Below, in pieces: positions 3,857-54,577 of a stretch of 64,000 nt of DNA. Both the position numbers and the translations under genes were made by a program. Numbering within the stretch: position 1 is the first letter of the stretch; each line of letters begins with the position of its first letter. The notes beneath the pieces are model-generated. The model saw only the letters and a program-made list of their open reading frames with translations. It was not told the origin of the DNA and ran no database searches. Origin of the DNA: Rugalucina vietnamica (Eukaryota; Mollusca; Bivalvia; Lucinida; Lucinidae); the NCBI GenBank assembly GCA_964017185.1, contig OZ024875.1, positions 44,216,986 to 44,280,985 of the forward strand, given 5' to 3'.

Positions 3857-5431
3857 CCCCCCAAACAAAAATAAATGGACCTAAGATCACCCCAATGAAT
3901 CATACTTGAATCATAATTCGTTAACGATCTGTTAGTGATTAAATTTGCCATGCAAATGAGCTAACGGATCACTTATTTAAATATATTGGGGCGCTCGTTT
4001 TGCGCAACGGATCATCTCATAATCACTAACAACACATTAAACAATCACAAACGGATCATTAATGAAACACAAATGAATCACCAACAGATCATACTAACGA
4101 ATCACCTTTAGATCACATTGTAACAAATCATTACTGGATTATACTAACGGATCACCTTTGAATCACATTGTAACCAATCATTACCGGATCACTAACTTTC
4201 AGCATAAGATTAATGCATAATCGTGTACTACAGGGTCACAAATGGATTATTATTAAATCACTTGGAACAAAGAACACTTTTATTGCCAGGTCAAGGGCAT
4301 ACATATATATAGTACATACATTCGTTAGTCTACACCTCTAAGTTCAACTATTTAACAATCTTTTGTGTCTAGTACTAAAATATAGAGCCGAGTTACTTGG
4401 CTTTGCTGAGAAAACCAAATACTTTCTCTTCATTTTGTCCATTAGAGAAACATATAATTGGGCAGCATGCATATATGCATATATATAAAAATGTGTACAG
4501 ACGTATCAATGTCTGCAGAAAAATCGAAATCTCTTTAGGTTTAGTATACATATTCATCGCATGGTATAAACGTACATTCCAACTGTAACCAAATGTTGAT
4601 TCAGATTCAGAAGACTGTTTTTGTGGAAGAAGTCACAATCATTTGTTCAAAACCTCCCAGTAAAAAGGTATACATAAATCTATGAAAATCTATCTGGAGG
4701 TGTCTGCATGCATTAAAAGGTGGTAAAGTATATGAACTTACCAGTCAAGGCTTATTCCAACATATAATTCACTTTAACAATCAGGCAAATGCATTCTTTA
4801 GAGCGTTCTCCCTGGATGTTTCACACACTGACTTTCAACCTAGAGTTTGAATGGCGCGCGCATTTGGCTGTTACAATTTACTCTTCGTTGAGTCAGGTGA
4901 CACAAAATATTACAGGCTATTCCCGTTATCTATGTATTTACATGTTTGTACATTATGCAATATTCACTTACAGTTATGAAGTCCAAAAACGAAGAAGCAT
5001 GTCGCAATCATTAACGTATAAAACAAGACAAAAGCATTTTACACGTAGTACCAATCGACACTGTCGGATGTAAGTTAGACCAAGAGAATATTTCCGGTCA
5101 TTCTTTCTGTGGGAAAAATCATATAACAGATCACTAACCGATCACTTCGAAAATATCAGTTATACAACATATCACATAAAGACAAACCTAAGATGTAACA
5201 AATCATTATCAGATCACTTTTCCTTGGCCCAGAGAATAAAGCTTAAACGGATACCAAACAAATCATTCAAATAAATCATTAACGGATCACTTTTAAAAAG
5301 TGTTTGTGATCTATTAGCTATTTATTTAACGGATCACAAATAAATACTATTAACGGATCACAAAAAGTGATTCAAACATGATCTAGATATGATTTAGATG
5401 TGATTAATTTCAGAATATTTTTGTTTGGGCC
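3857..5431. mobile_element. Motif-saturated TIR element (family G, GGATCAC arrays)
   Basis: Ends share CCCAAACAAAAATA in inverted orientation (3859 onward; 5416-5429). Two subterminal blocks (about 3885-4260 and 5110-5410) are filled with degenerate copies of AACGGATCAC / AATCATTAACGG. The centre (4260-5110) lacks the motif and has no transposase-like ORF. The layout fits a non-autonomous DNA element whose subterminal motifs may bind a transposase. The superfamily is not identified. Confidence 0.65.
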
Positions 5432-5839
5432 TGAAATAGAATGACTGATAACGTTTCTGTGTTGTTTCTGATAACAATTTTACATTATTTAATAGCTCAC
5501 GATATTCTACTACTGCGTCGTTTATGGAATGCGACTCACAGGCACCGTACATGCAACAAGCTTGTTCCCGATTTCGTTTTACAATTTAGGTGCTTAAAGT
5601 ACATGTACATGCAGAATAGCATGACTGTGTTATTAATGTTTCGACTTTTTGAAACTTCTGTGTTTTAAACATTCCTACCGAATCGAGGCTGTTTACATGC
5701 CGCGTGGCATAAATCGTAATTTTATTCAAAACTATAACGGAATCGTAATGCTGGTGTTAGGGTAAGGAACCATCGCGATATTATGGGAATAATTCTACAA
5801 TCAACTTATTTTTGATGCAAGCAAAAGTAAATCAGTATA

Positions 5840-5853
5840 TCCTTTTTTTTCAG
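5840..5853 (+). promoter_or_regulatory. 3' splice site before the TRIM-like coding exon
   Basis: A run of eight T followed by CAG lies 16 bases before the chosen ATG. It suggests a 5'-UTR intron, common for single-coding-exon TRIM genes in molluscs. The upstream exon was not found. Confidence 0.6.
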
Positions 5854-5868
5854 AATAAAAATATCACA

Positions 5869-7572
5869 ATGGCCTCCGTAGATGGTTCCCATTCGCTCCA
5901 AAAAACTTCTGACGAGTGTCATACCTATGTATGTGGGCCGTGTAAAACTGACAATTTAGAGAGAGCAGCCAGCTATTACTGCGATGACTGTCCGGATTAC
6001 CTCTGTGACGATTGCAAAGACCACCACGGAAAACTTCGACCGACGAGAAATCACGGAATTCTATCTAGAAGCCAGGTGCCAGCCGTTGCTTTTATTCGCG
6101 ATCAACCCGCGATTGCTGTCTTTTGTAGATGTAATAAGAATCAGGAGGTTCAGTTTTTCTGTGGTGCCCATCAAGATATTGTATGTGAATCGTGCAAAGA
6201 TACGATTCATTACAAGTGTAAGGTATCTCTTGCACAAGATGAATGCACGAGTTATAATACGTCAAGCATCGACACAGTGGTAACAAACATAGAAACACTC
6301 AAAGAGGAGTATGTTCAACTGAAAGAAAGGAGGATCGAAGACAGTAAATTATTGGAGCGTTCCAAAGAAGACTGTAAAGTAGCAATCAAGGCTTTCAGAA
6401 AAGATCTTGAGAACTTTCTTGACAACCTTGAAAAATCCATGTTAAAGCTACTTGATTCCCACAAGATTGAAGAACAAAAGCGAATTGATCAACATATTTC
6501 AACAATTACAGCGACATTAAAGATGCTTGATGCAGATCAAAACGTTCTTCAAGATGTTATAAGACATAACCGAAAACGTTTGATGTTTGCAGCAGATGTG
6601 CAAGTGTCGAAAAGTCTGCGAGATTTTGCCGCCAGACTATCAGACATAGGAAAAGATGTCATAGACACTTCAATAAATTTCGCGAGGAACACGAAGCTTC
6701 TCAATTTGCAGGCTGAAATAGATTCCTTCGGATCTCTGAAAACCAAGGAAATTATGCTGGACAAGAAAATTAAGTCACAGACACAGATAAGCGTCAAGAC
6801 ATCTGGTGACTGGTGGAAACCTTGTATAACTGGGACAGTTGTTATGGAATCTGGTGACATTATTATGTGTGACTTTGAAAATAAAGAACTGAAACTGGTG
6901 AAAACGTCTGACCATGCAGTAAAAGACAGTTTGACATTGAATGCAAATCCGTTGGATATTTGCGCTTTGGATCCTAAAAGAGCCATCGTTACGTTACCCC
7001 ATCTCAAACAACTCCAGTACATCGAAGTGTTCCCACGGCTTGCACCAGGGAACGTTATACAGCTTAACAAGAAATGCTGGGGCGTTTACTCGATTGGGAA
7101 TAAAATCTATACCTCTTGTCACAACAATCCAGGATAAGGAGAAATAAGAGTTCTGGATCTAGATGGCAACTTACTTAAACAAATTGGGATAAACAGTGAT
7201 GGTACATATACGCTCAAAAGTCCAACATACATCACTGTTAGTACATCGGAAAAGATTTTCGTTTCAGATCGTGATGAAAATGCTGTCACTTGTCTGTCAA
7301 TGGATAATCGTGTTATTTACCAGTATAGAGATATAGAAATGAACACACCAAGGCGCTCATACTGTGATGGTGGAGATAATATTCTAGTCTGTGGACAAAG
7401 CTCGAGCAACGTACAAGTAATCACGTCAGAGGGGAAGAAACACACTACTCTGTTATCGGCGAAAGATGGTTTGGAGAACCCCCGGACTATCAGCTATAGA
7501 GAGAGTGACTCTACGCTAGTTTTGGGATTTAACTCCTCGGACCATATCTTATTTTTTAAATGTGGGAACTGA
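5869..7572 (+). pseudogene. B-box / coiled-coil TRIM-like protein, in-frame stop
   Basis: One long exon. I start at the ATG at 5869 because a good 3' splice site (pyrimidine run then CAG at 5851-5853) lies just before it; an ATG at 5812 would sit inside that intron. Residues 17-62 form a first B-box (Cys22, Cys25, Cys38, Cys41, Cys46, Cys49, His52/53, His62) and 86-117 a second (Cys86, Cys88, Cys98, His101, Cys106, Cys109, His114, Cys117). About 130-260 is a long charged coiled coil, and the C-terminal half has beta-propeller/NHL-like repeats. There is no RING finger, as in many bivalve TRIM56/TRIM71-like proteins. A single TAA at 7135-7137 interrupts the frame, and the same frame then stays open for 144 codons of clear family sequence (EIRVLDLDGN..., ending FKCGN) to the TGA at 7570-7572. 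Without that stop the protein would be 567 residues, a usual length. The likely causes are a recent nonsense mutation, a polymorphism, readthrough or a sequencing error. Such proteins usually act in innate immunity or RNA control. Confidence 0.8.
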
Positions 7573-8009
7573 GACAAACTAACGAAGGTAGCGCTTTTCT
7601 CAATCAACGAAGAAGCAAGCCATTTGTGGAGTAACAAATGTTCAGCGTCTCGGCATTCTTTTGTAAATACATTGAATTTTCACATAAATGATATAATCAC
7701 TTGTAGCGTGTTACAAATGTACATATAGCCCCACCCTATAAGGCTTCACAGGTGCAGAGGAAGAATTTTAATACAGCTTACTAATTTATTATATGCGCAG
7801 AGAAACACACACATGGTTGACTCGACATAAAATTCTTGAAACGTTTTTCGGTTTCTTCATTATATGACTCTACATAGGAATCGGCCGTGAAGTTTCAGCA
7901 TAGAAGATCTCAGTGACCGAAGAACGAAAGATCACAGTTATGGGTATAATGTTAAACAATAATATTGCTAGTATAATAACCAATATGTGCGTGTAAGACA
8001 TCGTTTTTA
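7573..8009. other. Unassigned 3' flank of the TRIM-like gene
   Basis: No canonical AATAAA was seen close after the stop. The sequence holds no ORF, repeat or RNA that I recognise. Confidence 0.5.
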
Positions 8010-8010
8010 G

Positions 8011-8247
8011 CTCACCTGAGCCGAAGGCTCACAGGTTAGTTTATATGATAGGCAGGCATCCGGCGTCCGTCGTCGTCGTCCGACAATGTCAAAGATGAAT
8101 ATTCATCTCTGAAGCTAGTGGACCAATCTTGATCAAATTTTATTTGAACCATCACTGGGTAGAGGGATTGACTGCATTAGGTTTTGGACCATATGTTATA
8201 AAATTGTGGTTTCCATGGCAACAGATAGCTCCCATAGACTTACAACG

Positions 8248-8291
<44 letters not shown>

Positions 8292-9728
8292 CAAACATAA
8301 AAACACAATGCCAAGAGCTTCAATATTTTGTATGTAGCAATGTTAAGTAGTCTCCTTCGTAAATCTTGCCTACCATGCCCCTGGGGTCGAATTGACCACG
8401 CCCTGGGTGCGTCACTATCTGTCATTGGCTTATAATGGTAAAAATGTTTTTCTTAAATTACAAGCGCTAGAGCTTGTGTATTTAACATGTAACAATGTTT
8501 ATTGGTACCAGAACTTAACTTCACACCCTTGTGCACTTCGTGTGCTCATGATGTACACGACAACAGAGCGATTTCTGAACTATGATGTGCAACCCAAGTT
8601 CAAAATGAAGTGCACTGAAAGTTCTGTGACCAGTCTGAGATCGAAGAGCACGTTTTACATGTGTTAAGTGATACATGTAAATCTTACTATAAAAAGAAGA
8701 TTATTATCTGGATTGTAAATAAATCAATCATGAATAAAAGATAAATAATCAATTTATACATGTGTGTGATAACAAACGTTGTTTTTATCAACATTATAAT
8801 AATTACATTTGAAAAGATAAAGTCCATTTATTTTACGTATCATAAATTTCAAATTTGTATTTTGAGAAAATTTTACCTTGTCAAAATTTTACACCTGTCA
8901 TAGATAGAATACCCTTGAATCTGTCACCTGTCATAAATTTAGAATATACGAAAATCTGCCATAAAATAAGAATACCCGAGACTGTATTGATGGCAGCGAT
9001 TAAATGTTTAAAACAGTTACAAAATTAACCATTCTCAGATAGTTGTATATTAATCTATTACCATCTGCATAATTAGCTATTTTTATAAAATCGAAATACA
9101 GCGACTGCTGCCAATAAAGTGATCTGAAAAGTTGAATATAATTATTACTTAAACTCAAGAAGTTCAAGATTGCACGCAAATAACAGATAATGTATTCAGA
9201 TGTCACTCTAAATACAGCGCAGTTTTAGACCAAGTTGCACAAGGAGTGCAATTCGTTAAGCACATCATGTTCAGATGTCGCTCTAGCCAAAGTGCACTTG
9301 TCCCTCAAAGCATGTGCACAAGAAGTGCACTTCCTGTAACCTTAAGTTCTACCTCCACAGTAGGCTTATGATAGAAAGCAGATGAAAAAATCTTCTCTGA
9401 AACCGCAAGATCCAAAGCTTGTATATTTAGTATGCAGCGATGTTATATGATGCTTTACATAGATCCTGCCGATGATGCCCTGGTGTTCAAAATGGCCACA
9501 CCCCAGGGGACATTAGCTTCCATCTCCCATATACTTACAACAGGAAAAGCATACACAAATCTTCTCAGAAACCATGAGTCCCGGAGCTATTATATTTTGT
9601 GTGCAGCAATGTTCAATAATCCTCTTTATAAATCCTGCCACCTCTGCTCCTGGTGTCCATACAGGCCACGCCCCAGAGCAGGGGTCATTAGCTCCCCTAC
9701 AAGTAAAGCTGTCCAGATCAGGTGAGCT
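8011..9728. mobile_element. TIR element with AGCTCACCTGA ends (family H)
   Basis: The left end reads AGCTCACCTGAGC and the right end TCAGGTGAGCT, a perfect 11-bp inverted pair. Near both ends are blocks of the type GCCCCTGGGGTC...TGACCACGCCC (8379-8400) and two diverged tandem units around 9400-9700. The middle (8400-9330) is unrelated A/T-rich sequence with no gene. Repeats of this type are frequent in bivalve genomes. The outer limits are an inference from the matching ends. Confidence 0.55.
8249..8289 (+). repeat. Poly(A) tract
   Basis: About 41 consecutive A inside element H. No upstream retro-copied gene is visible. Confidence 0.95.
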
Positions 9729-9729
9729 T

Positions 9730-12116: not shown

Positions 12117-15100
12117 CTACAAAAACATGTTCAGAGTAAGACACAATAGGACGTATAGACTAGTGATCCAATCTCAAATTTTGAGACCAGGGAGGCCGGC
12201 TTGTTAATGGATGCAGACAATGATATTGTGCTTGCCCAATATCTGGGGAACAGCGCTAGGCTTGTCTGCAGATTCACAATCCGTTTTGTAGGTCAGTACA
12301 AGAGGTCAAAGGTCATGGGGTGCATAAAAGTAAAAGGTCGTACTAATGTACCCTATTATTGATGTTATGTTCAAAATAAAATCAGATTTTTGGTAGTTTT
12401 AATGAGTACCCGAGCAAATAATATTTTAAATGATTATATTCTTGCCATATGGCAACAAATTTGTAAAAATTACAATCAAAGTACATAAAGTACTGCAATT
12501 GTGAAAGAAAAAAAAACGTTGGGTAAAAGCAACATAGTACTTTCAAATAATAATTCCTTCATGTGATAGGCATTACATAATTATGTCCAACACTTTAATA
12601 TTTATGTATTTGTGTCAATCCATTTAGTCTACTGCACAAACGTTACTTAGATCTGTGAGTAGTTGCATGGCAAAACCAATATTTTGGCTAGAAGCAAATC
12701 AATGTTGGCGTATGTTCAATCTGCAATGAGCGTTTACTCATGGAGAAAACTTGGCTACCTATGAAATAACCCGAACTGGTGAATGCCTATGCTGTTCTGA
12801 ATCTTTGCCAGGAGCAAATGCGAAACCTTCGATTTTGTCATGCAATGGCCGAAATGTAAACATCACCTTAAGCGCAGTATCACTGGATGTTATAGGGGTT
12901 TGAGCACATATTGTCAACACACGAACATGCAGGTGTGTAGGGGTTAGTAACTTGAAGGCTTCGTAAGTTCCCTTACTTACTACATATTTACGATGGTCTC
13001 AAGATGACCGCATGAACATTTACGCCCTTGCTATTCCAGTCACTCTAAGTTATCATCACTTTTTGAAATGAAATGTGCCACTTCGTAAGATAAGACGACG
13101 CTAAGGTGGGCTAGAGTTGACCGCAAAATTACGATGTTGTTAAGCTGTCACCGTAACTTAAGGTCTCTTTCAGTTATTCCCATAATCCCTAAGAGATACT
13201 TAAGTTGGTCGTAAGTTGATCTTAAGCTTGAGATGGCTTTGAGTTACCAACCCCAGATCATCTCCTGTCAGTATTTACATCTTCGTGTAGCACAAGACTT
13301 GATTCCACATCGTTTGTTTGTGGAACAGGATCGAAAGTGATAAGTAGAGGCGTCGAGTGTCAGAGTCTTAGGCGTCCTTACTCTCGAAATGGCTTGGCTT
13401 CTGCCCCGCCTCAAACGCTATGACACGGGCGAACTGATTGAGAACTCTAAAATCCCACATCAATGGTTTTCCTGATACCCGCGCACCAGAGAAATACCCT
13501 GAATTTGTCTAGAGGAGCGACTGGCAACCTCAGGGGCAAGGTCGTCATCTAGATTATAAAAAAGAACTGAAATCCTTTAAGAGCAGCGAACATATTAATG
13601 AGAAAGAGGATACTTTCATAAAGAGTTTTGAGTCTGACATTCACAAACATAAACCTAGACCCAAACATGACTACCTCAAACCTTGCGAACGCTGTGCCTG
13701 TACAATTTCCAAAAGAGAGACGATGTAATAATACAGTCTGCAGACAAAGGGCCATCTGTGGTTGTCATGGACAGTGATCAATATGTCTCAGAAGCTGAAA
13801 ATTAGCTGAGTGATTCCTCCTTTTATGAGGTTCTTGATCATGACTCCACAATGGAATTTGCAAAGAAAGTTTCTGCTGCAATTTGTGAACTGAGAGCGGG
13901 TAACTACATCAGTGAAAAATTGGCATCTATCTCACTGTAGATGAACCAAAAGCAGGACGTTTTTATCTCCTACCCAAGATCGACAAAGCTGCAAACCCTG
14001 GCCGTCCCATAGGGTCTGCCAATGGACACACCCTACAGAGAAGATATCAGAATTTGTCGACTTTCATCTTCAACCACATATACAGAATTTACCATCCTAC
14101 TTGCAGGATACAACATATTTCCTGAAAAAAGCAACATGCAATGGGCCCACTTCCTCCCGAAACACTGATTGTGTCGATGAATGTCACACACCTTTAATCA
14201 AATATACCACATCAAGTTGGTATAAAAGCATGTGAAGAGGTTTGGGAAAAGCGGAAAGTTAAAGATCCGCCCATGCACATTCTAGTAAAACTTCTCAACT
14301 TGGTCCTCAATGCAACAACTTTGAATTTAATAGTAAACGCTACCTGTAAATTCAGGAGCCGGACATGGGAACGAAAATGGCACCATCATACGCCAACATT
14401 TTCATGGGTAGGCTTTAGAAATAGCCCCTGCAGTCGATTAGCTTGAAGCCATTTTTGTGACTCAGGTTCATAGATGACAAAAAGGTACAAGTAGGCAATG
14501 ATCAGGAAATGGCGCAATCAGAAAGAAATTCCCACTCCATAAACCGAGGGGTGGGAAAAAACTTAAATGACACTTAGCTACTTATACCAAGAAAACATAT
14601 CGTAAGCCGAGTGAGCAGCTATTCCCCAACAGGCGGCCATTCAGTTACCGGAACTGAACTAAAATATGAAAACGTACATAAGGCTCAAACAGCACAAAAT
14701 TCGACTCCAAAACACAAAACAAATAGAACCACAACAGAAGTATTGCCTTGGAACGATCAGTAATATAAAATTACTGGGGGCTTAAACAGGTTTTACAGGT
14801 GCCTAACCTCACATAGACATGAATACATGGATGGATACATGACAGAGAGACACTGGTGCAAACAACTTCCACCCAACAATAAAGTTTACTGCAGAGGTAT
14901 CCAACGACAAACATGCTTTTTAGACATCACGTCTCACCTAGAAGGAGACAGAGTTGTCGTGGACATCTACACTAAGCACACATATTCAAACCAGTACCTC
15001 TTGCCATAAAGCTGTCACTGCAGCAAGAACATCCCTTACAGTCTTGCGCTACGCATCAGACGTATCTGCTCAGACGACGAAGCCTTTGAGATGAGAGTGA

Positions 15101-17943: not shown

Positions 17944-20900
17944 CTATTTAGACTATATATGAAAGTGGTGTGTGGAGGGGTCATACATTACACGGAACTT
18001 TCATCACACTCAGCAAATGCTCGTTAAAAAATAAAAAATAAACCCTATTTTGACTATATATGAAAGTGGTGTGTGGAGGGGTGATATATTACACGGAACT
18101 TTCATCCCACTCAGCAAATGCTCGTTAAGGTCACTTTTATTAATTAAACTCTAAATTTCACTCCTCTTTGAATTAAGGTTACCTGCATTGTCAAAACGCA
18201 TCCATACTTTTAAATACATGTACAAGAAAAACCACGAGCGTAAACATAACGCGACAATAATAATGACTGGTACACCCAGTCACACATGAGAGCTAAGGGT
18301 ATTTCGACAAGAACTCTGTCGAATGAGCGTTCAATAGTTTTACACATACAATGCTCTGAACATGATTACCCTAAGGGTATTTCGACCAGAACTCTGTCGA
18401 ATGAGCGTTTAGCAGTTTTACACATACAATTTGCAAGAAAACATGATTGACACATTCTCTTCAAGCTATACTAGACCTCTGAAGCCCATAGAAGATGGAT
18501 ATATCCGAACAGCGATGGCTTTTAGATTAACTCATTTAAGACTGGCGTCCTTTTTATGGGACATAGGCAAACAGTATAGCCCCAGATGTGACGCCGCAGA
18601 ACTCGGTGTTCCATCTGGGGCTATTCTGTTTGCTTTCTAGCAGGAATTTCATCGAAAAATGATATAAAATTTTAAAATCACACCTGAAGCCCCTAAAACT
18701 TAAAGTGGACTCACCCAAATGATAACAATGGGAAAATCCAATCGTCATATACGGGTTAAATGAACTCACTGTTGACAGGATCATTCAGGACGTTGTAAAC
18801 CTTGTTGTCTGTAGTTGGTAGGTCAAAGCAGATAGGATGTTTCACACCCCGCACTCGAAGCATGTAATGGGGATCCCCACCTGTCAACACCGTTGTTAGG
18901 GTGCGTTAATACATTGTACATGGTGTTGTTTAACGAAAGTCATGTGCTGTGCCTTAACTGATTCTGACATAACAATTTACAGCAGAGAAGTTATCAACGC
19001 ACTCATGCATGTGTGTTATCGTAAAAACACTTTTACAGCTTTGCGAGTTGCGAATCTAGTCGTACACTGCCTTATACGTGCACCTGCATCGCAAGGCACA
19101 TACGGTATTTTATGGTGACTTGGTTTACAAATTAAAGAAACTTAATGCTGCTCTCACATATACCGAATATCCCTTGCGAATCCTAAAATTTGAAATTCGC
19201 GCTGAAATTACCGAATATGATGCGAATGGACGGGGCGGGGCTTGTACAAAACGATGTCTTTGCGAAAGCGTTAAGAATGCTTGCGGATCCTTACAAATTT
19301 CTTAAGAATATTGCGATTGATTGCCATGCTCACTACCGAATTCTTGAAAATGCCTTACGAATGTTCCGAACGCTTACAAATGCCGTTACAAATAATACGA
19401 ACGTAATTGCAAACACCTTACAAATGAAGCGAATGTGTAGCGAATGCTTGCCGAAATATTTTGATTTTTTACTCATTCGCAAACATTGTAGCCAATAATA
19501 TCAATATAAAACGAAATCACCCACCATGCCATGGGGCATGGAAAAATATGTCATTATTGGTCCAAGACTACTCTTGAAACACACACCACTTTGTTGTTTC
19601 TCTCAAATTGCGATTTACACAATAAAAAAAGATAATTTTACCGGGCAAACGAAAATTTCACGGGTCTTTAATTTGTCTGTCATACATTGATGGACAGCTT
19701 AAGGCCAAACACCATAAATAATGGCCTTTACTTGAAGGATAGGGCCAGAATAAATAATCTATGCTAAAAACTGAGTCTTGAATGTGAAAATGTTGCGATT
19801 CACTAGCGATTCTTTACGGACATCAAAACTCAATAGAATTTAATGCTACAGAATCCTTGCAAATGGCTTGCGAGTGTTACAAATGTCTTGCAATCAATCC
19901 GAATTGTTTACGAATTCTTTACGAATATGTTAAGAATATGATTTCCTTGCGAATTTTAGGAGCATGTTCCTAATTTTCGCAACGACTCGAAATTTTCACC
20001 GAATGCTTCCGAATGCTTACAAATGCTACCGAATGCTTCCGAATTTCTAGCGAATAATGCGAATTTGCTCAAAATTACATTCGGAAGGGCATTCGCAAGG
20101 GAAATTCGGTATATGTGAGAGCAGTATAAAGGAATAAATGATTTTTCTTTTCAGTTCGGAAAAATCATAACACGTTACAGACGTATAGGTTATAACTTGA
20201 ATGTTATGCGACAGTCTGCATGCTTAGTTTTTAACCCAATCATGGTTGATAACTATGCTGCCTTCTTTAATTGCACGCCGGTGGGTCGGGCGTCAGACTC
20301 TATGATGGCCCCGACTTAAAGCTATTCATTTTAGTTGGTTGGGGCCGGAGCTTCTTGTCTGTTGCTTGGCCCACCGGGGTCCAACTGGTGTTTTTCTTTT
20401 GCTCCGGAGTTAGTAGGTTATTCGGCGCCCAGGGATCTCCATCGTCGGGCAGCTTACTCAATCTGTGAGTCCTGGTTTTTGATTCATCAGGATGTTTATC
20501 ATGATTTATTTGTTTGTTCTTGATGATTCATTGACTAGTTAGAGATTCACCACGGGGGCCGAGGGACTGGCTGGATGTTGTGAACCACTGCAGTAGCTTA
20601 GGGTGAGGTTAGGTACCTGTAAAACCGGTTTAAGCCCGCCAGTAACTTTGTGTTACTGATCGTTCCAAGTCGATACTTCTGTGGTGGTTCTTTTTGTTAT
20701 ATGTCTTGGTGTTTAAAATTTTTGTGCTGTTGGCGCCTTATGTATGTTTTCATATTTTTAGTTAAGTTAAGGTAACTGAGTGGCCACCTATTGGGAAAAT
20801 AGCTGCTCATTCGGCTTACGATATGTTTCATGGTATAAGTACCTGATTGTTAGTTTGGTTTTTTCCCACCTCGGTTTTTGGAGTGAGAATCTTTTTCTGA

Positions 20901-30900: not shown

Positions 30901-33900
30901 AGTCACGATAATTTAATGTACCCATGCACACTTTTGAAACGCATGCCCGAGAATATTGACAAACGTTTGTCATTAGCGATTTTTCGTATAAATCGCTATT
31001 GACAAACGTTTGTCATTAGCGATTTCTCGATTAAATCGCTATTGACAAACGTTTGTAAATAGTGGATTTCACGTATTTTCGCTATTGACAAACGTTTGTC
31101 TCATACGATTTATACGAGCGCCAAGCAAGGCAGCCACTATAGTACCATTTTTAAAGTCTTTGGTATGATCCGGCCCGGGATCGAACCCACGACCTCCCGC
31201 TCCCGAAGCGGACGTTCTAACCATTACGCTATCGGACTCGGCTCAGACCTTAGCGGTTAACCAGTAATCAGGTGGTAAGTCAGTAGCGTAGAAGCTTTGT
31301 CTGGAGGCACAAACACTCCATCTATTTCTTTAGGTCCCATTGGGTGGGGTGGTGGGTGCATATTCTCACCCGACCACTCGTGCTTTGTAGCCCTTGTGCT
31401 ACCCAATGGATTTAGCCATTGCACAGCATACTGGAGGTAAACCTTACGCAGCATGGAGACATTTGGCATGGCATAGACATACACTTTACTCGAAATTGTA
31501 AGAATTTTATGACACATGCATTCTAGCAATTCACGTTAAAACACCCGGATTAAAGATCGCACTTCTTTCTAATTCTGTTCCCTAAAATCACTACGCTAAC
31601 TGCACAATACAGGTGCAATAGACAATAGACGCGTGTCTGATTTAACAATCGATTAATCGAGTATCGAGGACTAGGTAGCGAAAATACATTCTTGATAGCT
31701 AAGCGAAAAGAGGGGAAAAGGGTCTTTGATGATACATATTATGAAACAAAAATTAAACTCCAAACGCTTAAATAAGAAAGGCGAAAATAGTGGGTTAAAT
31801 TCTTGATCATGACATTTGATGTTTTACCTTCATCTATGGATTAGGCTTCAAGGGTATGTGTACCTGTCCGAAACCAAAATTTTGATACGTGTTCCAAGTC
31901 TCAGTCAGCCTCCAGTCCCTGACATCAGGAAAACATGTCCGTGAAATAACTATCCCATTATATCCCAGTTTTATATTAGTAAAACTGGGGTATGTAGTGG
32001 TATATCTATTTTTCTTATTTTTGCTCCAAAACATAGATTGTGGGTACTCGTCAAGGCGGTTCTAACGTGTACTCACAATCAATGTTTTGAGCAAAAATAA
32101 GAAAAATATCAAACACTTTCTACTGAAAATTTTCATTTTTACAACTTTACAAAACCCCTGTATTTTGCATGGGCAAGTTTTCGTAAGCTTTCGGGTACTT
32201 TAAGCAGAATTTCAGAAACATGTTACAAAATAGCTCTTTTAGTGTGGGTTTGGATGAAAACCAGAAAACAGGTGGCCTTAGTACATTTTTCGATAAATGG
32301 CAGCTATAGCAACTTAATCGTCAGCGGCTATGGGCCTATGGCCGAACATAGGTTGGGCCGATGTTCGGCCGGACCACAATTTTAAAATTTTCGACCCAAT
32401 ATTATTTCATGTGGCTACCCAAAACCATTAATAACTGAAGACACGCGTCATCGGTTTTATTAGGTACATGTACGTCAGCCAAAGGTGTGAAATACACTCG
32501 TTATAAAAACATAGTTTACAGTAGTGACACCTTTATGGGATTAAAAAGGATTAACGATTAAAGTCTGCACTGAAGTGATCTTTAATTTAATACAACCGAA
32601 AATGTTTGATATTAAAACATGAACATTGATAACCATTATGGAAAATTCACAAATTTTCTGACATCATTTACAAAGGTGTCATTAGAAAGTTGTTGCTTGA
32701 CACAGAAATATATGCGTTCATTTTTAGTTTAGTTTTTTAAATATTTGTAAATTTAAATCACTGCACATAAAAAGAACCTGTGCATGAGAAAACCAACAGT
32801 TTGGGTTCATCACCAGGTCCGTCACAAACCAGGCTGTACAGTCACAGAATAAAACTAGAAGATTGAAACTTTGGATATAAGTAGAAGAGGAATTGTACTA
32901 TCCGTGTGGCGAAAACAAAGGCGCTGATCATCAAGAAAAAGATTTCATAATTATCACATTCATGTGTTGCTTGCTGCAGAATTATTTTCAAATTGTGACC
33001 AGTTTAAATGTGCATATCAAAAGCAATTGGCCAAGCACTGATTGGTTAAATTAAGCAGTTATTCATAGAAGAGTCTTTGTCTGATGCAGAGTCATTAAAT
33101 TGTAATCTGATAGCACAAGCCTGGTTATGCAAATGAGCTGGCTGGGACCTTAATTACCTAGGGGTCATATCAACGACGGACCACGGAACATGGGTATACT
33201 AAAAGCTCACCTAAAAAGCGCGTTTTCACATCTTGTGGATTGCTAAATGCCGACAATTGCGTACATTGTATTTTTGCGCTAGTTAACTCTTTCTTATTCT
33301 CTCTAGAATGGCCTCTAGAAGCATGAGACTAGTTCCATTTTAACAAAATTTTCCTCGCTCGCACAGCTCGCTCAAACGAAGAAAGTCCTTTTGCTCAAAC
33401 CCAAATATTTGTTTTGTAAATTTTCTGTAAAATGACATATAGAAGCATGAAACCTACTTCATTTTCGCAAAAATCTCCTCGCTCGCACAGCTCGCTCGTT
33501 CCAAGGATGCAAGCGGACGAATACGTATGCGCTCTTTCCAAGTAATTTCAATCCAAATGTGCTATGAAAATAAGAAGGTCTTAGTCAAATTCTCCGTAGA
33601 ATTGACCCTGGGAGCATGATTCCTATTTCATTTTTTCGCAGTTTTCTCATATCTTTTTCTCAAGTTCGCTCGCTCGTTCTTAGAAGAAAACAAATGTGAG
33701 TGCCCCCATCCCGTTCACGTCCTCTGAATCTGGCCCTGATTTTATCCGTGTTGTGTCCTCAGTTCAAGCAAAAAAACTTGGGAAACGCAGCCTCAGTCCC
33801 AAAATTACTTGCTGACTTGGGCAATAAACAATCCCTCAACCAACAAACTCTACTCAACCAACTCATGGGTTTGAGCCCCACTAAGCACATAATCACATTA

Positions 33901-36175
33901 TGGGAAAGGATCTTACACTGAAGAAGTCCCATGTTCGCTCCAGCTGATGACCAGTTCGTCTTAACATAAATATTGCAATCCAAAAGGGCGGTTAAACTGA
34001 ATCAGGTACGAGTATAATGAAAAGACGCTTGTTAGTCTACTGTAAAACACGGTTTAGCAAATTCAGAGTCTGTTAGTATTGAGTTTTCCAAACAGCTAAG
34101 ATCACATGAAACCGGAGCCTCGATTAATATACGATTTTTCTGGGCTCAAAATAAGCTTCGATTGATAAATTGAGATATTATGCATGCACATTTGCTATTT
34201 GCGTGAGCCTATTGGTGTATTTCATATAAATAACGTTCGGACGTTTTCCCTGCATAAGGATTAATTTTATGATGATACTTGGTACATGTACGTTTGTTAC
34301 TTCAGCTGTTGCCAAACTTGACTAATTCAACATTAATTAATATCCAAACGTTTGTCAATAGCGAGTTTACATATTTTTTTCCTATTTACAAACGTAAATA
34401 TTTGCCAGTCGTATGTGCCAATTAATAATGCAGTTTTCCCCGCCCAAGATGTTGGAGACGATGATGATACATTGTACATTGCTGCTATCAACGTCTGACT
34501 TGGTAATTAAAAAATAATATAGCCGTTTGTCAATAGTGATTTTTCGTAATTTTGACTATTGACAAACGTTTGTAATTAGCGATTTTATCGAAAAATCGCT
34601 ATTGACAAACGTTTGTAAATAGCAGATTTAACGTGTTTTCGCTATTGACAAACGTTTGTCATTAGCCTCTTCCAAAAATAAAACAGAGATTCTTTAATTA
34701 ACAGCAGTGAACGTATTAATGAGAAAGGGAATGGGCCATACCGCGGTTTCGGCTACTTATTAAGCCTTTTCAGTGACCCCATGGAGCCAAAGAGAATTAC
34801 TGTAATTTCACAAGTATCAACAAGACAGTCGATATAAAGACTGTTATTATCCCAATGGGGCCAAATATATTAAAAGATGGTTAGAAAAGGAATCTAATCC
34901 AATAATTTTTTGATTTCTCATAATACCTTCGCCGATCTCAAAGGACCTAAAGGAAAATATAAGTCTGCACTATGGATGATGTACGGGGAGAAACCCACGC
35001 CCTTCCGACATGAAATTCTATTCGTCTTCTTTTATGAAGCTCTACGGTAAAGTCTTATAACATTATTTAGTCCACCCAAGAGTTCAATGACATTGTTTCA
35101 ATGTGGAGTTTGGTTGCGAAAACAGGACTCAGAATCTGACTGTACCAATTTCCAGGTTACTGAACATAAAAATGCATACTGACATTGTCCAATCTTCTAA
35201 TCATTTGAAGAAAATTTGCACAGATATGTTTATGTCTATCCAGAGAGTGTTAAGAGTAAACACAGTGTAGTAATAACAACAAACATGCAGTGTATAACCT
35301 TGAATTATAAACCCACATTGAAATAAATAAGCTGCAAATGAAGTGAAAACATTGGAGCGTGTGTTCCTTTGTTTTTTTTTAGTCTGCAGTTTTAGATGCC
35401 AAAAGACTAATTTCCTTATGGAGAATCATTGCCTTTAGAGAGTACTTAGCTTTAAAACCTTTCCGATTTTTGGGTTATAAAATTGTCAAGGAACGGGTAA
35501 ATAAAATGCCAAATTACGTGGAGGTTTTCGAAGCCCTGCATGCCATCTGAATATTTCGAGGCAAAGAGGGTATGGTTAGAAGAGTATAGCTGGGGGCTTG
35601 ATTTCAGCTAGAATTTTTTGAGTTTGCAAATTTGTTTCACTAATACTATTCTCTGACGATTCAATCATTCCTATGATCATTTGAGCCGTCTCATGAAAAA
35701 AACCCACAACAATCTGCATATGCGAAAACAAAGACGCAGATCAGCTTCGCAGTAACTACGAAGCTGATCAGAGTCTTTATTTTCGCTACACGGATAGTAC
35801 AATTCCTCTATTTTCTAAATCCAACATTTCCGGCCTCGAGCTGTCTTCTGTGACTATACAGCTTGGTTTGTGTCGGACCTGTTCAAAGACCACATTGTTG
35901 GTTTTCTCATGAGGTGGCTCATTTTATAGCCACTGGTACCAGATACTAGCATGCACTGCGCATTGGTTAATATGCTTAGGTCTTAGAGAAGTGCTTTATG
36001 GGCGATGTGACACCACAGGCGTAAACCAACAATCTGCATATGCGAAAACAAAGATGCAGACCAGCTTCGCAGTAACTGCGTCTTTGTTTTCGCTACACGG
36101 ATAGTACAATGCCTCTGCTTTCTAAATCCAACATTTCCGGCCTCTAGTTGTCTTCTGTGACAATACAGCTTCGCT

Positions 36176-38362: not shown

Positions 38363-39262
38363 AAAATCGCCGCAGCAAATTATCTGCTAACTCAGTTGAC
38401 CGTTTCTTGCTGCACCCAATTTTCTGTTAACTGATCGAGTTGTTTCAAACTGGATATTAAAAGTAAGTGAAGATGACATGATTTGATATTGAACACTGCC
38501 AGGATGAAATTTACCTTACCCATGTACATGTAGTTTCCAGGTCAAGTCTAGGAACCGTAGGTCTTCTCGAAGGGAAAGCACTGTGATGATGCGCTATAAA
38601 TAGATATGCAAATTTTAAATCCAGTAGTTTGTGATATCAGTATATAGCACATACATGTACGAACGTACAGCGTATGTTGTTTTTCCATCGGTGAACTGTG
38701 TTGTTGCCTGATTTGGCTAGACTTTACGCTGCGCCAAGTCCCTCCCCGCCTCCGTGCTGCTGTCAAATGCTTTGAGCTTTTGTCTGTGAACGGTAGCCTG
38801 GGTTCCAGTCTGATCATTTTTCTCTTTTTTATGTTTTCGTTTCTTGGTCAAAAATGACAATATCTACGGAAATCAATAAAGGCTACCGACACCAAATTGT
38901 CGGAAAAAGAAGAAAAACAAACATAACCTTATATATGGAAAATAATTATATTGACGACTGGACGCAGGCTAGTGAACGGGTTTATATACTGCGAGACGGT
39001 ATCCGTGCAGCCATGGTTTGATGGCCCTTGACGGCATGTGAATACGGTTATTGCATCTTAAAATTCAGCTAATAACGATATGCAAGGAAGAATATTTGAA
39101 GGCACAAAAGACCTGAAAATACTTAAAAGATCTATCTATAGCTCTGCAAGTTATTTAATTTGTAATTGGTAGCGAAAAGATGGGCGGTTAATCTTGACCT
39201 TTGGTTAGAGTATGGACCGCAAAAGAAGGTTTTCTTATGAGGGGTTCTACAACATTGTTTAA
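38362..39262. other. Intergenic, nothing recognised
   Basis: No gene-like ORF with splice context; no repeat family seen elsewhere in the window. Confidence 0.5.
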
Positions 39263-39890
39263 GCCCGCCTCACACAGAACACACGGTTTACACGGTTGGC
39301 CACCCGTGTAAACCGTACATACAACCGAATAAACCGTGGCCTTATCCGACTTACACTCGGGCCATTCGAGTGTATCCGTGTAAGCCGTGTATGATTTTTA
39401 AAACTTTTAAAAAACTGGCACGGGTGCGATGTCCGTGTATAATCGTATAAGCGATCGTACAAGACCGTGAGAGACCGTGTAAGCCCGTACGAGACCGTAT
39501 ATACAACCGTACATGAAGCACAAAGCACGAGTAAGCTCAACCGTGTCAAAATCGTATGTAAATCGTATGGAACAAAAGTCGATGGGACCGTATATAAACC
39601 CTGTAAATGTCCAGTAAATCGTGTCAACGTCGTGTTTAATCGTACTAGGCCGTAACAGACCGAACTAGACCGTACTTGGAACCGTAAAACAATCGTATGA
39701 AAATCGTTTGCAAATCGTGATCGAGTATATCCGTGCTTTGTTCGTACTCACTCTTGCTACATTCGAGTCTAAATCGTACCAACTCATCCTCAGGCACGGT
39801 TGGAGCTCAATATTCGTACCAGTCAATCCGTGTATAACCGAGTAAACCGTATTAAAACCGTGTGCCCAACCGTGTTCTGTGTGAGACGGC
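39263..39890. mobile_element. Motif-saturated TIR element (family D, ACCGTGTA)
   Basis: The left end GCCCGCCTCACACAGAACAC is mirrored by GTGTTCTGTGTGAGACGGC. Almost the whole 628 bp consists of variants of AACCGTGTA, CCGTATA and AATCGTA. The ORFs over it are by-products of the motif. It is non-autonomous. Confidence 0.85.
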
Positions 39891-40060
39891 CTTTACTGAG
39901 GAATACTGCACTTATTTTCCATTTACCGCAATGAAAACTACTTCAACTATGGTCCACCAAAAAGAACCAAAATATCCGCTTTATACACTCATTAATTACT
40001 GATTACACAGATTTGGACACAGTTGTTAATCTCTTGTATCTCTATATATTCTTTTCAAAA

Positions 40061-41785: not shown

Positions 41786-41789
41786 GGTA

Positions 41790-43164: not shown

Positions 43165-43195
<31 letters not shown>

Positions 43196-48915: not shown

Positions 48916-49006
48916 GCATCTGCCTTATTTTGTTCGAATACAAATTTTTTTCATAGACGGAGAGAATTAACTTTTAAATGCATGCTTAAAAGCGTATTAA
49001 ATCACA

Positions 49007-49890
49007 CTGGTAAATGTAAACGCACTGGCTAAGGCACGAACGTATAGGCTAAGGCAATTTCAACGCTATGGCTAAGAAAGAAAATTGCGAATAGTGAGAC
49101 ACATTTGCAGGTTTGTTGTTGTTTTACAGTTTCATTTTCCGGTTATCAATGATGACGGCTACTGGACCCACGAATGAGTCACAAACTTACGTTCGATGGT
49201 CCGATGTCGCCAGCTGCAGCCAGTAAAAGTGTAACCTCGACAAAGTGGAGACACTAAACCACGAAATCTCATGATTTTTCATGAATTTCTGTTTTTCTAT
49301 GATATCATACGCTGTCTTGTAGTTTATACATATGCAAATGACAAATCGGACGCCTTTGAGCACGATTCATGAAAAAAATGAAATTGAACGGCCCCCAGCG
49401 TGTGTCAATTCTTGAAGTTTTATTACAACGCTATTGGCTAAGGAACCTGAAACAACGTAGTGGCTAAGACCCCAGATTTTCTCGGTGAGAAAATGATATA
49501 ATATGGTCGTTAGACTCGTAAGTGTCTTTCTCAAAGTAGGTTTTGAGGTCTAAATCATTTTTCAAACATGGTTTAGAGCTTCGTTAGTGAAATTAAAAAA
49601 GAATATATATCGTATTTACGCACCTATCAATGTTTTTCTTTGGGGGAGGGGGTGGGGGGTGGGGGGCTTACAGGTGGAATTATACAACAAATTTATCCTT
49701 ATCCCTGGGAATTAGACAGAGTAGGAATTAGACCAAGGGATGGTTAATTAGAACTGTACATGAAAATATGCAGCGAAATTGATGACCCACGAGGGGATTT
49801 AGGACATCACAATGCGATCAATGATTGGGGAAATAGACCCTTTTTCAAAATTGTTTAATTCCCACTGGAAATCCCGTCGCTCCCTCCTCT
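49007..49890 (+). repeat. Repeat family L, copy 2
   Basis: Matches 300-1213 inverted. A G-rich stretch (49640-49668) replaces a C-run region in the other copy. Part of it (49127-49468) is repeated at 59927-60268. Confidence 0.8.
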
Positions 49891-49971
49891 CTCGAACAAA
49901 CAACATCCGTCGCGAACAGTGGCAGTGATTTACCATTATTGGCGTACAGTAGGAGCAGGGAATAGTAATTA

Positions 49972-50330
49972 TTAAAAGTAAAAGTAGGCAACGTGCAGGA
50001 AATGGCGCAAGCAGAAAGTAACTCCCACTCCAAACACCGAGGTGAGAAAAACCTAAATTTACAATAAGGTACTTATACTAAGAAAACATAATGTAAGCCG
50101 AATGGGCAGCCATTTTCCCAATAGGTGGCCACTCAGCCACTCAAACTTAAATTAAAATATTGAAAACGCACATAATGTGCTAACAGCACATAAATTCAAC
50201 ACCAAGACATAAAACAAAGAACCACCACAGAAGTATCGCCTTGGAACAATCAGTAATATAAAATCACTGGCGGGCTTAAATCGATTTTACATGACCATAA
50301 CCTCACCCTAAGCTTCTGCAGCAGTTCATA
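49972..50330 (-). repeat. Repeat family K, copy 6
   Basis: AAAAGTAGGCAACGTGCAGG to GGTTTTACATGACC-like end matches other K copies. It lies between two inverted L copies. Confidence 0.75.
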
Positions 50331-50446
50331 ACATTTAATGCCAAACTATTTAATGTCAAAATGCATGTAATAGAAAAAGAAGCAGCCTTTTTTTTTGGCT
50401 GAGAAAATGATTTTTGAAATTTATAACGTATACAACATAACAATAA

Positions 50447-50641
50447 TGAGCCAAGTCGTGAGAAAACCAACAATATGCATAATTTATGCGAAAACGAAAG
50501 CGAAGATCAGCCTCGCGGTAACTGCGAAGCTGATCAGCCCCTTTGTTTTTGCTTTACGAATAGTACGATCCCTCACTTTTCTAAATACAAAATGTCATGC
50601 TTCTAGCCATATTCTGTCGCTGCGCAGTCCGGTTTATGTGG
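50447..50641 (+). mobile_element. MITE family A, right end missing
   Basis: TGAGCCAAGTCGTGAGAAAACC and the hairpin GATCAGCCTCGCGGTAACTG are present; the text breaks off at GGTTTATGTGG, where repeat L starts. Confidence 0.82.
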
Positions 50642-50664
50642 AAAACGAAATTCAAACGGTTTAA

Positions 50665-51255
50665 CAAAGCTCTAAAAACCATGTTTGAACTATAATTTAG
50701 ACCTCAAAACCTACTTTGAGACAGACACTTCACGAGTCTTACGACCATATTATATCATTTTCTCCCCGAGAAACTCTGGGGTCTTGGCCACTACGCTGTT
50801 TCCAGTTCCTTAGCCTATAGCGTTGTAATGAAACTTCAAGTATTGTCACACGCTGGGGGCCATTCATTTTGATTTTTTCATGAATCGTGCTCAAAGGCGT
50901 CCGATTTATAATTTGCATATGTATAAACTACAAGACAGTGTATGATATAAGAGAAAAATGAAAAATCATGAGATTTCGTGGTTCAGTGTCTCCGCTTTAT
51001 CGAGGTTACACTTTCACAGGCTGCAGCTGGCGACATCGGACCATCGAACGTAAGTTTGTGACTCATTCGTGGGTCCCGCGCCGCCAAGACAGTAGCTGTC
51101 ATCATTGATAACCGGAAAATGAAACTGTAAAACAGCAACAAACCTGCAAATGTGTTTCACTATCCGCCATTTTCTTTCTTAGCCATAGCGTTGAAATTGC
51201 CTTAGCCTATACGTTCGTGCCTTAGCCAGTGCGTTTACGTTTACCAGTGTGTAAA
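50665..51255 (-). repeat. Repeat family L, copy 3 (inverted to copy 2)
   Basis: GAGCTCTAAA-like start to CAGTGCGTTTACGTTTACC end, parallel to 620-1213 and inverted to 49007-49590. Confidence 0.85.
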
Positions 51256-51801
51256 TATGGAATGTTGTTATAAAAACACCTTTTGTCAAAAAGTATTACA
51301 ATTGCATTAAAGGCATTGTTAACCAAGAAGCTATCGGAGACTTATGACAACACGTTAAAAGATTTCCCCTCGGACTGACGTACGGTCTTCTTATCGCTTT
51401 GTTGGTCACTTTCCTTATACTTGAGTTTGCTCATGCTGTCGTTGCTGCAATTACCTAAGTGTAAATCTGACATTGAACTGGTGAAGGGGCACGTTCGAAG
51501 AATAAGACGGATTTTCTGATTTTCTGTAGAATTATGCGAGTTTCCGTACTAATTATATTTTTATATGCAATGAAAGCGTTTGTATAATGTACATGTATAT
51601 TAATATTTAATGCATCCCTGTTTCAGGATAAATAAATATTATTATTCAGGATAAATAAATATTATTATTGAAAATGATCCCCAGGATAAAAAAATGCAAG
51701 TTACATGTATGCAATTCTGACGAACATTGTGTTCGTTGTTGAAATTAGCATCCTATTTTCTTTTTGTTAAGAAATGTGAGTAGAGCAGAGCCATAGAAAA
51801 C
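51256..51801. other. 5' flank of the rolling-stone-like gene
   Basis: Holds a 22-bp tandem pair (GGATAAATAAATATTATTATT) near 51626-51670. No clear TATA box. A possible 3' splice site (TTTTCTTTTTGTTAAG, ending near 51771) precedes the ATG, so a 5'-UTR intron may exist. Confidence 0.5.
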
Positions 51802-51936
51802 ATGGCGACAGCAAAAGAAAAAGAGGCTGAAGAAGATATGACAGAACGAAGTTGTTGCCAGGAGCTACGTGAAGAATTTCGTCTACACAGACTCAAACTT
51901 GATCATCCACATCCAGTACATTTTGTAAGCTTACAG
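51802..51936 (+). CDS. Rolling-stone-like exon 1 (residues 1-45)
   Basis: MATAKEKEAEEDMTER, then SCCQELREEFRLHRLKLDHP and ending VSLQ before a GTAAGG donor, phase 0. Confidence 0.85.
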
Positions 51937-52376
51937 GTAAGGTACATCGTAAAAAAGACTTGGTGGGTTCCAGTCAAGCATACTTACAATTTCACAATTT
52001 AGTTGTACAGAATTTTATACAACAATTCTGTCCTCTTTCTTACTTTCTCCCGCTCTCTTTCTACTTTTCCTATTTTATCTCTTATTTGAATTACAAAAAC
52101 ATTCACATGCATTACACAATAATGCACGAGGCGGTTCTAACGAGTACCAACAAGGTATGGTCTGGAGCAAAAATAAGAACATAATGCACACCTCTGTAAC
52201 CCCCGCTTTTACTATATAAAATTGGGATTCAAAGGGGTATATTTTTCACGTAACCCTGATGTTATTTCTATATCTTTTTTGTAACAATAGAATCTTGCAT
52301 TTCAAGGATTGTTGCTACTCGTGTTGTTTTGATTGATGTATAGCCTGAGTATTATGAATATATTCGAAAACAACAA

Positions 52377-52421
<45 letters not shown>

Positions 52422-54577
52422 ATATCATATAGTTCAAGTATACTAGGCAATACCATGTCTTGAACATTTGATCTAAAATAGTTTATGTTGAAATAGGCGG
52501 TGTTACCTCCCAGCAGACATTTGACGTCAGTGGGACGTCAGACTGACATCAGACTCCAACGTCATAATAACGTTGGAGTTAGGTTGATTTTGAAAGTTTT
52601 TTTGACGTCAAAACAGACGTCAATCTGACGTGTTAAAACAACGTTGGTTAAACGTCTGAAAGCTGACGTCAATCTGACGTCCTAAAACCGATGTTGGAAC
52701 CCATGTCATATCAACAGTTTATCGTGTGAATACTCTATCGCATTTTTTTTTAAATTAACATTATGAAATCCTGAAGTGGATTCAGAAAATCAGAGATGCA
52801 CTATTGTAATTCCCTTTCACTCCTTTGAACATACTAAATGTTTATGATGTTAAATGATGTTTGGTACACCTTATTTAATTAAGCGAAATTTTATTGCCAT
52901 ATGGTGCTAAAACCAATAAGACATTAGTGTAAGAAATAAGATTATTTTGAACAATCAATAATTTAAAATGGTGAAATAATTATTAAAATATACAAATTTT
53001 ATTTTCATCTTAATTGAAAGTTATAAGATTTAGTGAAAGACTTTATTTTGATTAATAAATAATTATTTTTCTAAATAAATCAAGCATGATGGGCAAAATA
53101 TGAAATTTCCCATACAAGACCCAGATATGACTTTTCAGTGGCAATGTTGAAATTATTATTTGAATTTGATTTTGTTGCATAATATGCGTAAGAAATTTTA
53201 TTTTATACTTTACAGTGAAAACCAATGTATATCAAAACTTGATAAAATTTGTATTTTCATTGATATGAAATTTCACTGATATCAAATCTCACTGATATCA
53301 AAAGTCACTAGTGACTGATATCAGCCTATATCGTCACTGTTGATTTTGGATTACTTCTGACGTTTCCATTTACTTGACGTCATTAAATGTGTCTCACTTC
53401 AGAAATTCAAACGCCTATAACTCCGTTATTTATGAACGAAAACATAAAGTGTGGGTATTCATTTTCTTAGTTAGAAGGTAAGGAACAATGTGGTACCAAA
53501 ATTATTTGTGTTTTCAAAAATTTTTGTTTTTTGCATTTTTACCGCCCGCCTTGTAAATAGGAAAATGCCCGTGTATTGTATAAAATAAAAAGAAAATTTG
53601 CTTTTTTTCGGTGAATACCAAATATATTTCACCTCGTGTGTTGAAAACATAAAAATTTTCACTCGTGCTGCGCACTCGTGAAAATTTTGATGTTTTCAAC
53701 TCACTCGGTGAAATATATTTGGTATTCACCTCAAAAAAGCAAATATCCTCTATATATCAGTTCAAGGGCAGGTAACTCTGTCGGCATATGGCGTTAGACT
53801 GACGTTGAATACGACGTCAGTTTGACGTCATAATAAATACGTCCACTGACGTCAGGACTGGACGTCAGGTGGACGTTGGTTATTTGTTGTATGACGTCGT
53901 GACCAAAATACAACTAATATCCGACGTCAAGTTGACGTCAGGTGCCTGCTTGGCTGTAGTAACTCGAAGATCAACGTGATATGGAAGCAATCCATTCAAT
54001 TATCGTACTTCATTTCAGTGTTTTAAGAGTACAATCCACCACATTTGGAGCGGCTTCTGGGCAGTTTACCACCTCGCAATGCTCATCCTGGACATATACT
54101 ACGAGAGGGACGCGGGTGGAGAGTATTTGTCATTTCTCACGAACTGGTCCTATATCATTGTTGTGGGTTTCTCCATAGCGGATTTTGTGATAACGGTCTA
54201 TGTCCATGCTAAAAGAAAAGATATTGTCGAACAAAAAGGTGGGTTATTTTTCTTATGAAACTATAAAACGAGCCGGCTTCGCATGTGACAACTAACCGCA
54301 ATCTGGGTATTCGATCAGTCCCGACACTAACCAATCCGTACAGTCACAGCTTGGAATTTCAGACTTAGAAATAAAGAAGAGACGGTACCTTCTACGGGGC
54401 GAAAACAAACGTGCTGATATGCGCCCTTGTGCCTATGCCTGTTGTTTGTTTTCTTATGAGACGGCTCATAGATTATAGAAATGAAAGCATATGTGATACG
54501 GATTCAAAAAAGGACTGACTGACAGACAGGCAGGCAGACAGACAGGCACAGACAGACTGACAGACAGGCAGGTAGGC

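Follow-up and report, generated by a model that had tools for sequence, protein, structure and literature searches.

Regularly spaced arrays of private words in five transposon families and a Harbinger element of the bivalve Rugalucina vietnamica

Introduction

Subterminal arrays as such are already known in other transposons: many short words stand in subterminal blocks in the motif arrays of CACTA/En-Spm elements and the AAACGG arrays of Ac. In known Harbinger systems, Myb-like proteins bring the transposase. We know of no account of CACTA/En-Spm or Ac in which such words are paced by the turn of the helix, or in which private words occur side by side. Here we describe five transposable elements, designated E1 to E5, in a stretch of 64,000 nucleotides from the lucinid bivalve Rugalucina vietnamica (GenBank contig OZ024875.1; C7:44216986-44280985), hereafter called the window, together with their copies, which were searched for throughout the same 1.09-Gb assembly, and with a gene-bearing Harbinger element of that genome, HarbA. 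On balance we read the five as non-autonomous cut-and-paste transposons whose arrays probably act in cis as sites for a DNA-binding protein of an autonomous relative. We favor recognition sites because a similar geometry recurs in five families, because HarbA follows the same design, and because words are conserved between two transposase-bearing lineages.

Five families and three classes of target duplication

The first-pass annotation of the window had proposed five unrelated elements with terminal inverted repeats (TIRs), built to a single plan and each filled with copies of a private word. Word enrichment, multi-copy families, sharp ends and target duplications bear out the elements and their arrays; the ends given below, all on the forward strand, are corrected versions of those first proposed. 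E1 (3860..5429) is a non-coding element of 1570 bp with ends CCCAAACAAAAATA...TATTTTTGTTTGGG and a 2-bp duplication, CC/CC. Three are miniature inverted-repeat transposable elements (MITEs): E2 (12941..13253, 313 bp, ends GGGTTAGTAAC...GTTACCAACCC), with a CWG-type duplication that reads TAG/CAG in the window copy; E3 (19146..20126, 981 bp), whose inverted ends of about 36 bp (TGCTGCTCTCACATATACCGAAT...) differ by 2 mismatches and are flanked by TAA/TAA; and E4 (39262..39892, 631 bp, ends AGCCCGYCTCACACAGAACAC...), flanked by TTA/TTA. E5 (52509..53953), with ends CCCAGCAGACATTTGACGTC...GACGTCAGGTGCCTGCTTGG and the 2-bp duplication CT/CT, measures about 890 bp once a nested insert is subtracted. 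First-look searches returned 71, 1330, 745, 158 and 1282 candidates for E1 to E5 (the E5 query being 52480-53190). Forty candidates were scored per family, and most scored places of E1-E4 cover the query nearly end to end.

In most copies examined the element ends coincide with the target duplications, as the first-pass annotation would have them do at true insertion borders. Identical 2-bp flanks occur in 19 of 21 copies of E1 and in 8 of 11 copies of E5, where two copies lack an end and one has differing flanks. These dinucleotides are mixed (CC, TA, AA, TT, GC, CG, TC and others), and AT appears just once; an ISL2EU assignment for E1 and E5, which calls for a duplicated AT, was rejected on this ground. 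Both families have ends of the form CCCA...TGGG, the right tip of the window copy of E5 being TTGG. E4 is flanked by identical TWA in 22 of 30 copies; ends are missing in 2, and 6 differ (2 solely at the center base, 4 otherwise). For E3 the TWA pattern holds in part, with identical flanks in 7 of 13 copies and a difference confined to the center W in the other 6. Those six (L075, L083, L085, L087, L123 and L124) are flanked by TTA and TAA, one at each end, and the one HarbA copy examined likewise reads TTA/TAA; a center base that is seemingly independent on the two flanks is odd for a 3-bp duplication.

Identical CWG flanks E2 at 12 of 30 loci, all among 16 dispersed two-ended copies (L052-L068 minus L057, which lacks an end). 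Two pairs of these copies, L061/L063 and L065/L066, have common flanks, so that independent events are fewer. Another thirteen copies (L039-L051), mostly flanked by TAG/CAG, are nested in one common larger repeat and for that reason were counted as one site.

A TWA duplication marks PIF/Harbinger and CWG marks NuwaI, both within the PHIS superfamily, and CMC elements duplicate 2-4 bp (PMC4482050). By their flanks, then, E3 and E4 classify as PIF/Harbinger type and E2 as NuwaI type. E1 and E5 are possibly CMC/EnSpm-like, an assignment that is tentative: a 2-bp duplication of any sequence fits, and the ends read CCCA instead of CACTA. Since the duplications are TWA, CWG and any 2 bp, there are three classes, neither five unrelated elements nor the one superfamily that the first-pass annotation had also entertained, and a single target-duplication class for all five is ruled out.

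E5 is composite. Positions 683-1245 of the E5 query match elsewhere independently, at 97-99% identity in the best scored copies, and at C3:41132539-41133440, a copy empty of the insert, part 1-685 runs directly into part 1241-1441. A repeat of about 555 bp from another family (about 53198..53752, edges accurate to a few bp) is therefore nested in E5, outside the array design, which rules out a single element of 1443 bp. This nested repeat has an 84-bp near-palindrome at one end. A second E5 copy with the same nested insert lies at 60427..61868 on the forward strand; it is no independent insertion, because it belongs to a direct segmental duplication (52342-56071 and 60269-64000, up to the end of the window) of 99.07% identity.

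The E4 family falls into subfamilies of 613 bp and about 653 bp, which differ by array indels. Twelve of the 30 fetched copies (L027-L038, 612-613 bp) are almost identical to one another, which suggests recent activity. Some E3 copies stand in side-by-side groups, at C14:34506837-34508788, C1:93062707-93064636 and C11:40794755-40796579. The older E1 copies L119-L122 do not form a subfamily, each being closer to L001/L002 than to one another.

Words and layout of the arrays

The exact words occur 6, 3, 2, 2 and 7 times in E1 to E5, against dinucleotide-shuffle means of 0.2, 0.2, 0.1, 0.2 and 0.1, and their enrichment is also clear against the remaining window in all five. With learned weight matrices the site counts are 44, 13, 45, 43 and 27, and shuffles average 10.3, 2.4, 9.4, 6.4 and 4.5. 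When the matrix was relearned on shuffles, the maxima reached 40, 10, 30, 24 and 27; judged by site count alone against this maximum, E5 is not above it and E1 barely so. An unbiased scan for 6-mer clusters recovers all five elements and the E5 duplicate, along with other places that include simple tandem repeats.

The arrays of E1 occupy 3860..4270 (word RATCAC, lag 11 strong) and 5090..5429, where the word is inverted in the final 65 bp or so; those of E3 occupy 19146..19500 (word TGCGAATG) and 19785..20126; and those of E5 occupy 52509..52730 (word TGACGTCA) and 53780..53953. The two subterminal blocks first described thus hold for these three elements. E4 is one continuous array over its whole length, 39262..39892 (word AACCGTGTA), and in E2 the words CTTACG/CTTAAG are spread throughout 12941..13253. 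Between 10% and 90% of element length the words keep largely to one strand (28:1 in E1, 29:4 in E3, 30:4 in E4), and orientation becomes mixed close to both termini of E1 and E3 and to the left terminus of E4.

Aligned family copies contain the arrays, so the later, microsatellite-like expansion raised in the first-pass annotation as a possible refutation finds no support. All 27 aligned E4 copies, from both subfamilies, have the same array, with indels. Ten aligned E5 copies (82-93% identical) have the blocks, the exceptions being L115, without the end of the right block, and L111, with a different left tip. Arrays are likewise present in the E1 and E2 copies compared.

Array geometry

Spacing was measured by 4-mer autocorrelation at lags 5-60, with 100 dinucleotide shuffles as the reference for z. 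The top z falls at lag 11 in all five elements: 12.2 in E1, 7.3 in E2, 13.6 in E3, 13.0 in E4 and 19.2 in E5. After simple repeats in the window had been masked, 300-bp stretches were ranked by their count for this lag: the top 45 (counts of 12-23) all overlap E1, E3, E4, E5 or the E5 duplicate, and counts outside the elements peak at 10; E2, at 313 bp, is absent from the 45. In forty random segments z was 7-9 across most of lags 5 to 12 and did not peak at lag 11 (7.9), but these segments were unmasked for simple repeats and form no clean null, so that the masked scan is the better control.

Fitted periods replace a strict 11-bp rule with two values, 10.2-10.4 bp in E3, E4 and HarbA and 12.0 bp in E1 and E5. 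Over whole elements the fits are 10.2 bp for E3, 10.4 bp for both E4 and HarbA, and 12.0 bp for E5 and for E1, where 6 of 200 shuffles were equally high. All six Harbinger-type blocks lie at 10.1-10.5 bp, with 0-3 of 200 shuffles each: E3 left (10.4 bp) and right (10.1 bp), the two halves of E4 (10.3-10.5 bp), and HarbA left and right. The left (12.0 bp) and right (11.9 bp) blocks of E5 and the right block of E1 (11.9 bp) lie at 11.9-12.0 bp, with 1-2 of 200 shuffles, and other copies agree (E5 L113 and L114, 12.0 bp; E1 L120, 11.8 bp). Block periods are similar with k = 3, 4 or 5 and with the inverted ends excluded. The repeat of about 12 bp in E1 and E5 consists of 11+13 pairs. The period of the Harbinger-type arrays equals the helical repeat of DNA, and array period splits with duplication class, 10.2-10.4 bp for TWA versus 12.0 bp for the 2-bp class, a second finding at odds with a single superfamily.

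A gene-bearing Harbinger element with the same design

A search of the genome with profile PF13359 gave 415 candidates, many with open frames (150 were scored), and four transposase loci were fetched. One of them (L126/L129) is HarbA, an element of about 6 kb at C1:25426987-25432967 in which an 18-bp end probe matches exactly at both inverted ends. Between those ends it has the gene pair expected of PIF/Harbinger, a DDE transposase and a Myb/SANT open reading frame (ORF): the transposase frame, of 392 codons, matches DDE_Tnp_4 (PF13359, E 1.4e-25, profile positions 1-141 of 158) and may continue into a second exon, and a frame of 198 codons, running inward, matches the MADF domain (PF10545, E 2.8e-8). 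Arrays of YACGK lie between each end and the adjoining frame, the left one beside the transposase frame and the right one upstream of the MADF frame; lag 10 stands out in both, with z of 11.2 and 6.9. The search for transposase-bearing relatives proposed in the first-pass annotation thus yielded an element of the same array design, and no partner of the five themselves. The outer end of HarbA, TGCTGC, resembles that of E3, and its word differs from the E3 word. Convergence, or words changing fast within one superfamily, as first suggested, would fit E3, E4 and HarbA, which have different words and are of TWA type, tentatively so in HarbA.

HarbA multiplied recently, because 14 copies of its left end are 99-100% identical, after which the other scored relatives fall to 74% and 70-73%. 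The 74% left end, at C14:50267386, adjoins a transposase match with a 404-codon frame and represents a second lineage, known from its left end. Lag 10 is the top lag in both lineages. Across their alignment, word columns differ at 12 of 95 (13%) and other array columns at 70 of 227 (31%; p = 0.00045). A similar difference separates E5 subfamilies A-C, with 10 of 126 word columns changed versus 45 of 261 others (p = 0.013). These comparisons favor, but do not prove, a word that is read by a protein in the Harbinger and E5 arrays.

Of the other fetched loci, L127 and L128 resemble ISL2EU elements: both have a DDE match and open transposase frames, and a THAP domain was found in L128. The frame adjoining the L128 transposase appears by eye to encode a YqaJ-type nuclease, with a sub-threshold exonuclease match in Pfam. 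The fourth locus, L130, is of Harbinger type. L127 and L128 reach lag-11 counts of 10, which on inspection by eye do not reflect word arrays.

Other features of the window

Two stretches of about 150 bp, at 30949-31100 and 34520-34669, are built from 43-bp units that contain the palindrome GACAAACGTTTGTC. A long open frame at 5761-7137 appears by eye to encode a B-box/TRIM-type protein, and a cluster of the word GCGAGC lies in a repeated stretch at 33100-33700.

Discussion

For E3 and E4, the reader of the arrays would be the MADF/Myb-SANT protein whose gene accompanies that of the transposase in PIF/Harbinger elements. It would bind a private word of about 5-8 bp, and because the word recurs about once per helical turn, successive molecules would line up along a single face of the DNA and could form a cooperative filament that loads the DDE transposase onto the element tips. 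Even a short word could be read with high specificity if its weak sites are many, as has been argued for Galileo (PMC3688188). In HarbA the arrays would also fall within the promoters of its two genes. E1 and E5, with their paired 12-bp repeat, would depend on different machinery.

Several observations weigh against this reading. No autonomous partner turned up for any of the five, none having been searched for in the case of E2. Neither a DDE transposase nor a Myb/SANT gene was seen in the E3 and E4 MITEs, whose own partner was not found, and among the best 100 of 191 places with the E1 end pattern there was no inverted pair 3-10 kb apart, the two wider pairs spanning 11.7 and 19.4 kb. Arrays occur in one of the four fetched transposase loci; L127, L128 and L130 have no word array, the ends of L127 and L130 lying outside the fetched sequence. 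The fitted periods of E2 (11.1 bp) and of the E1 left block (12.4 bp) are not significant, and with the inverted ends removed the top raw lag of E1 is 50, which a tandem duplication of 50 bp accounts for at least in part. The left array of the second lineage fits 9.9-10.1 bp, a value with no shuffle comparison.

Word conservation, too, is uneven. A third relative, L132 (72%), shows no significant conservation against HarbA or the second lineage (p = 0.46 and 0.39). Control words with at least 10 columns in the HarbA comparison differ at 2/10, 8/15, 5/15, 2/10 and 11/34 columns, few enough to make this a weak control, and choosing word columns by pattern match introduces a mild bias toward conservation. 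Two further E5 comparisons run in the same direction and miss the 5% level (p = 0.30 and 0.07). E4 shows a weak trend (1 of 196 word columns versus 9 of 417, p = 0.18); private changes in 13 E4 copies affect words (52/2553) and other positions (102/5787) about equally, as expected once an element has inserted. Conservation is absent in E2 (6/74 versus 15/242, p = 0.60), and in E1 words have changed more than spacers (9/198 versus 5/491, p = 0.006), several of the changes falling on the degenerate purine. The column comparisons therefore do not support word conservation as proof in E1 and E2. The transposase recognition arrays proposed in the first-pass annotation are thus supported in part, by the common geometry, by the design of HarbA and by the conserved words of the two lineages; the missing partner and the behavior of E1 and E2 count on the other side.

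The best surviving alternative, which we consider unlikely, is that the arrays are decayed minisatellites, head-to-tail units of about 11 bp made by slippage and carried as passengers without a role. Short tandem duplications do occur inside them (the 50-bp unit of E1 and a 10-bp unit in E3), indels in the array separate the E4 subfamilies, and E1 and E2 lack word conservation. Slippage does not readily explain why similar geometry with different words recurs across three target classes, including both ends of a gene-bearing element, why the information in the matrices is packed into about 5-6 positions, or why words differ less than other array columns when HarbA is set against the second lineage.

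Somewhat less probable again are autoregulatory promoters, through which the MADF protein would control transcription of its own element, the MITE arrays being left as passengers or decoys. The placement of the HarbA arrays, beside the transposase frame and upstream of the inward MADF frame, would suit such a role, and a fish MADF protein derived from PIF/Harbinger has been found to bind its own promoter at the TIR region (PMC11893794). Gene-less MITEs, which are numerous, nevertheless retain arrays across hundreds of base pairs, and this suggests a role in mobility. A purely structural role, in which periodic words would bring the ends together by bending DNA or positioning nucleosomes, with no specific protein, is very improbable: the Harbinger-type period of 10.1-10.5 bp matches the helical repeat, but the words are unlike A-tracts and differ among families, and E1 and E5, at 12 bp, are out of helical phase.

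Array geometry might be a code at the level of the superfamily, a proposal we put forward tentatively and hold as somewhat less than an even chance. MADF Harbingers would use one face of the DNA at about 10.4 bp and the superfamily with 2-bp duplications a paired repeat of about 12 bp; words would turn over as the DNA-binding proteins diverge, leaving many private word-reader channels in one genome. Spacing would then track the superfamily and the word would be private to the family, which would explain how the machinery tells Harbinger MITEs apart. A lag of 10-12 would be a simple sequence signature by which partners might be located and the word for each MADF/Myb-SANT protein predicted, and the recent multiplication of HarbA makes the word-reader idea testable.

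Comparison with described systems

Medicago MtPH-A6-4, a subfamily of PIF/Harbinger, the type of E3 and E4, gives a precedent for subterminal repeats (PMC2213677), but these are tandem copies of one long unit, missing in 5 of 23 members, and the available part of that report does not describe helical phasing. The PHIS groups of PMC4482050 have the TWA and CWG duplications of E3/E4 and E2 and, as in HarbA, a transposase with a Myb/SANT second ORF; we know of no arrays described there, and the word "subterminal" is absent from the main text. The hAT element Hermes comes close in form, with short degenerate words near both ends, five of them in the first 55 bp, which the transposase binds cooperatively through BED domains (PMC10368747). 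It belongs to another superfamily, its binding has been demonstrated whereas the present arrays are known from sequence, and phasing is not stated in the portion of the paper at hand. Galileo, of the P superfamily, has extra THAP sites in its long repetitive ends, proposed to serve specificity, and these are three, at about 70, 561-577 and 701-718 bp (PMC3688188). Among the literature matches listed, from which subscription papers were largely outside coverage, no title or abstract opening concerns helix-phased subterminal arrays in Harbinger elements. What is new here, beside these systems, is a geometry common to all five elements; its pacing by the helix in the Harbinger type and its split by superfamily are likewise absent from the matches listed.

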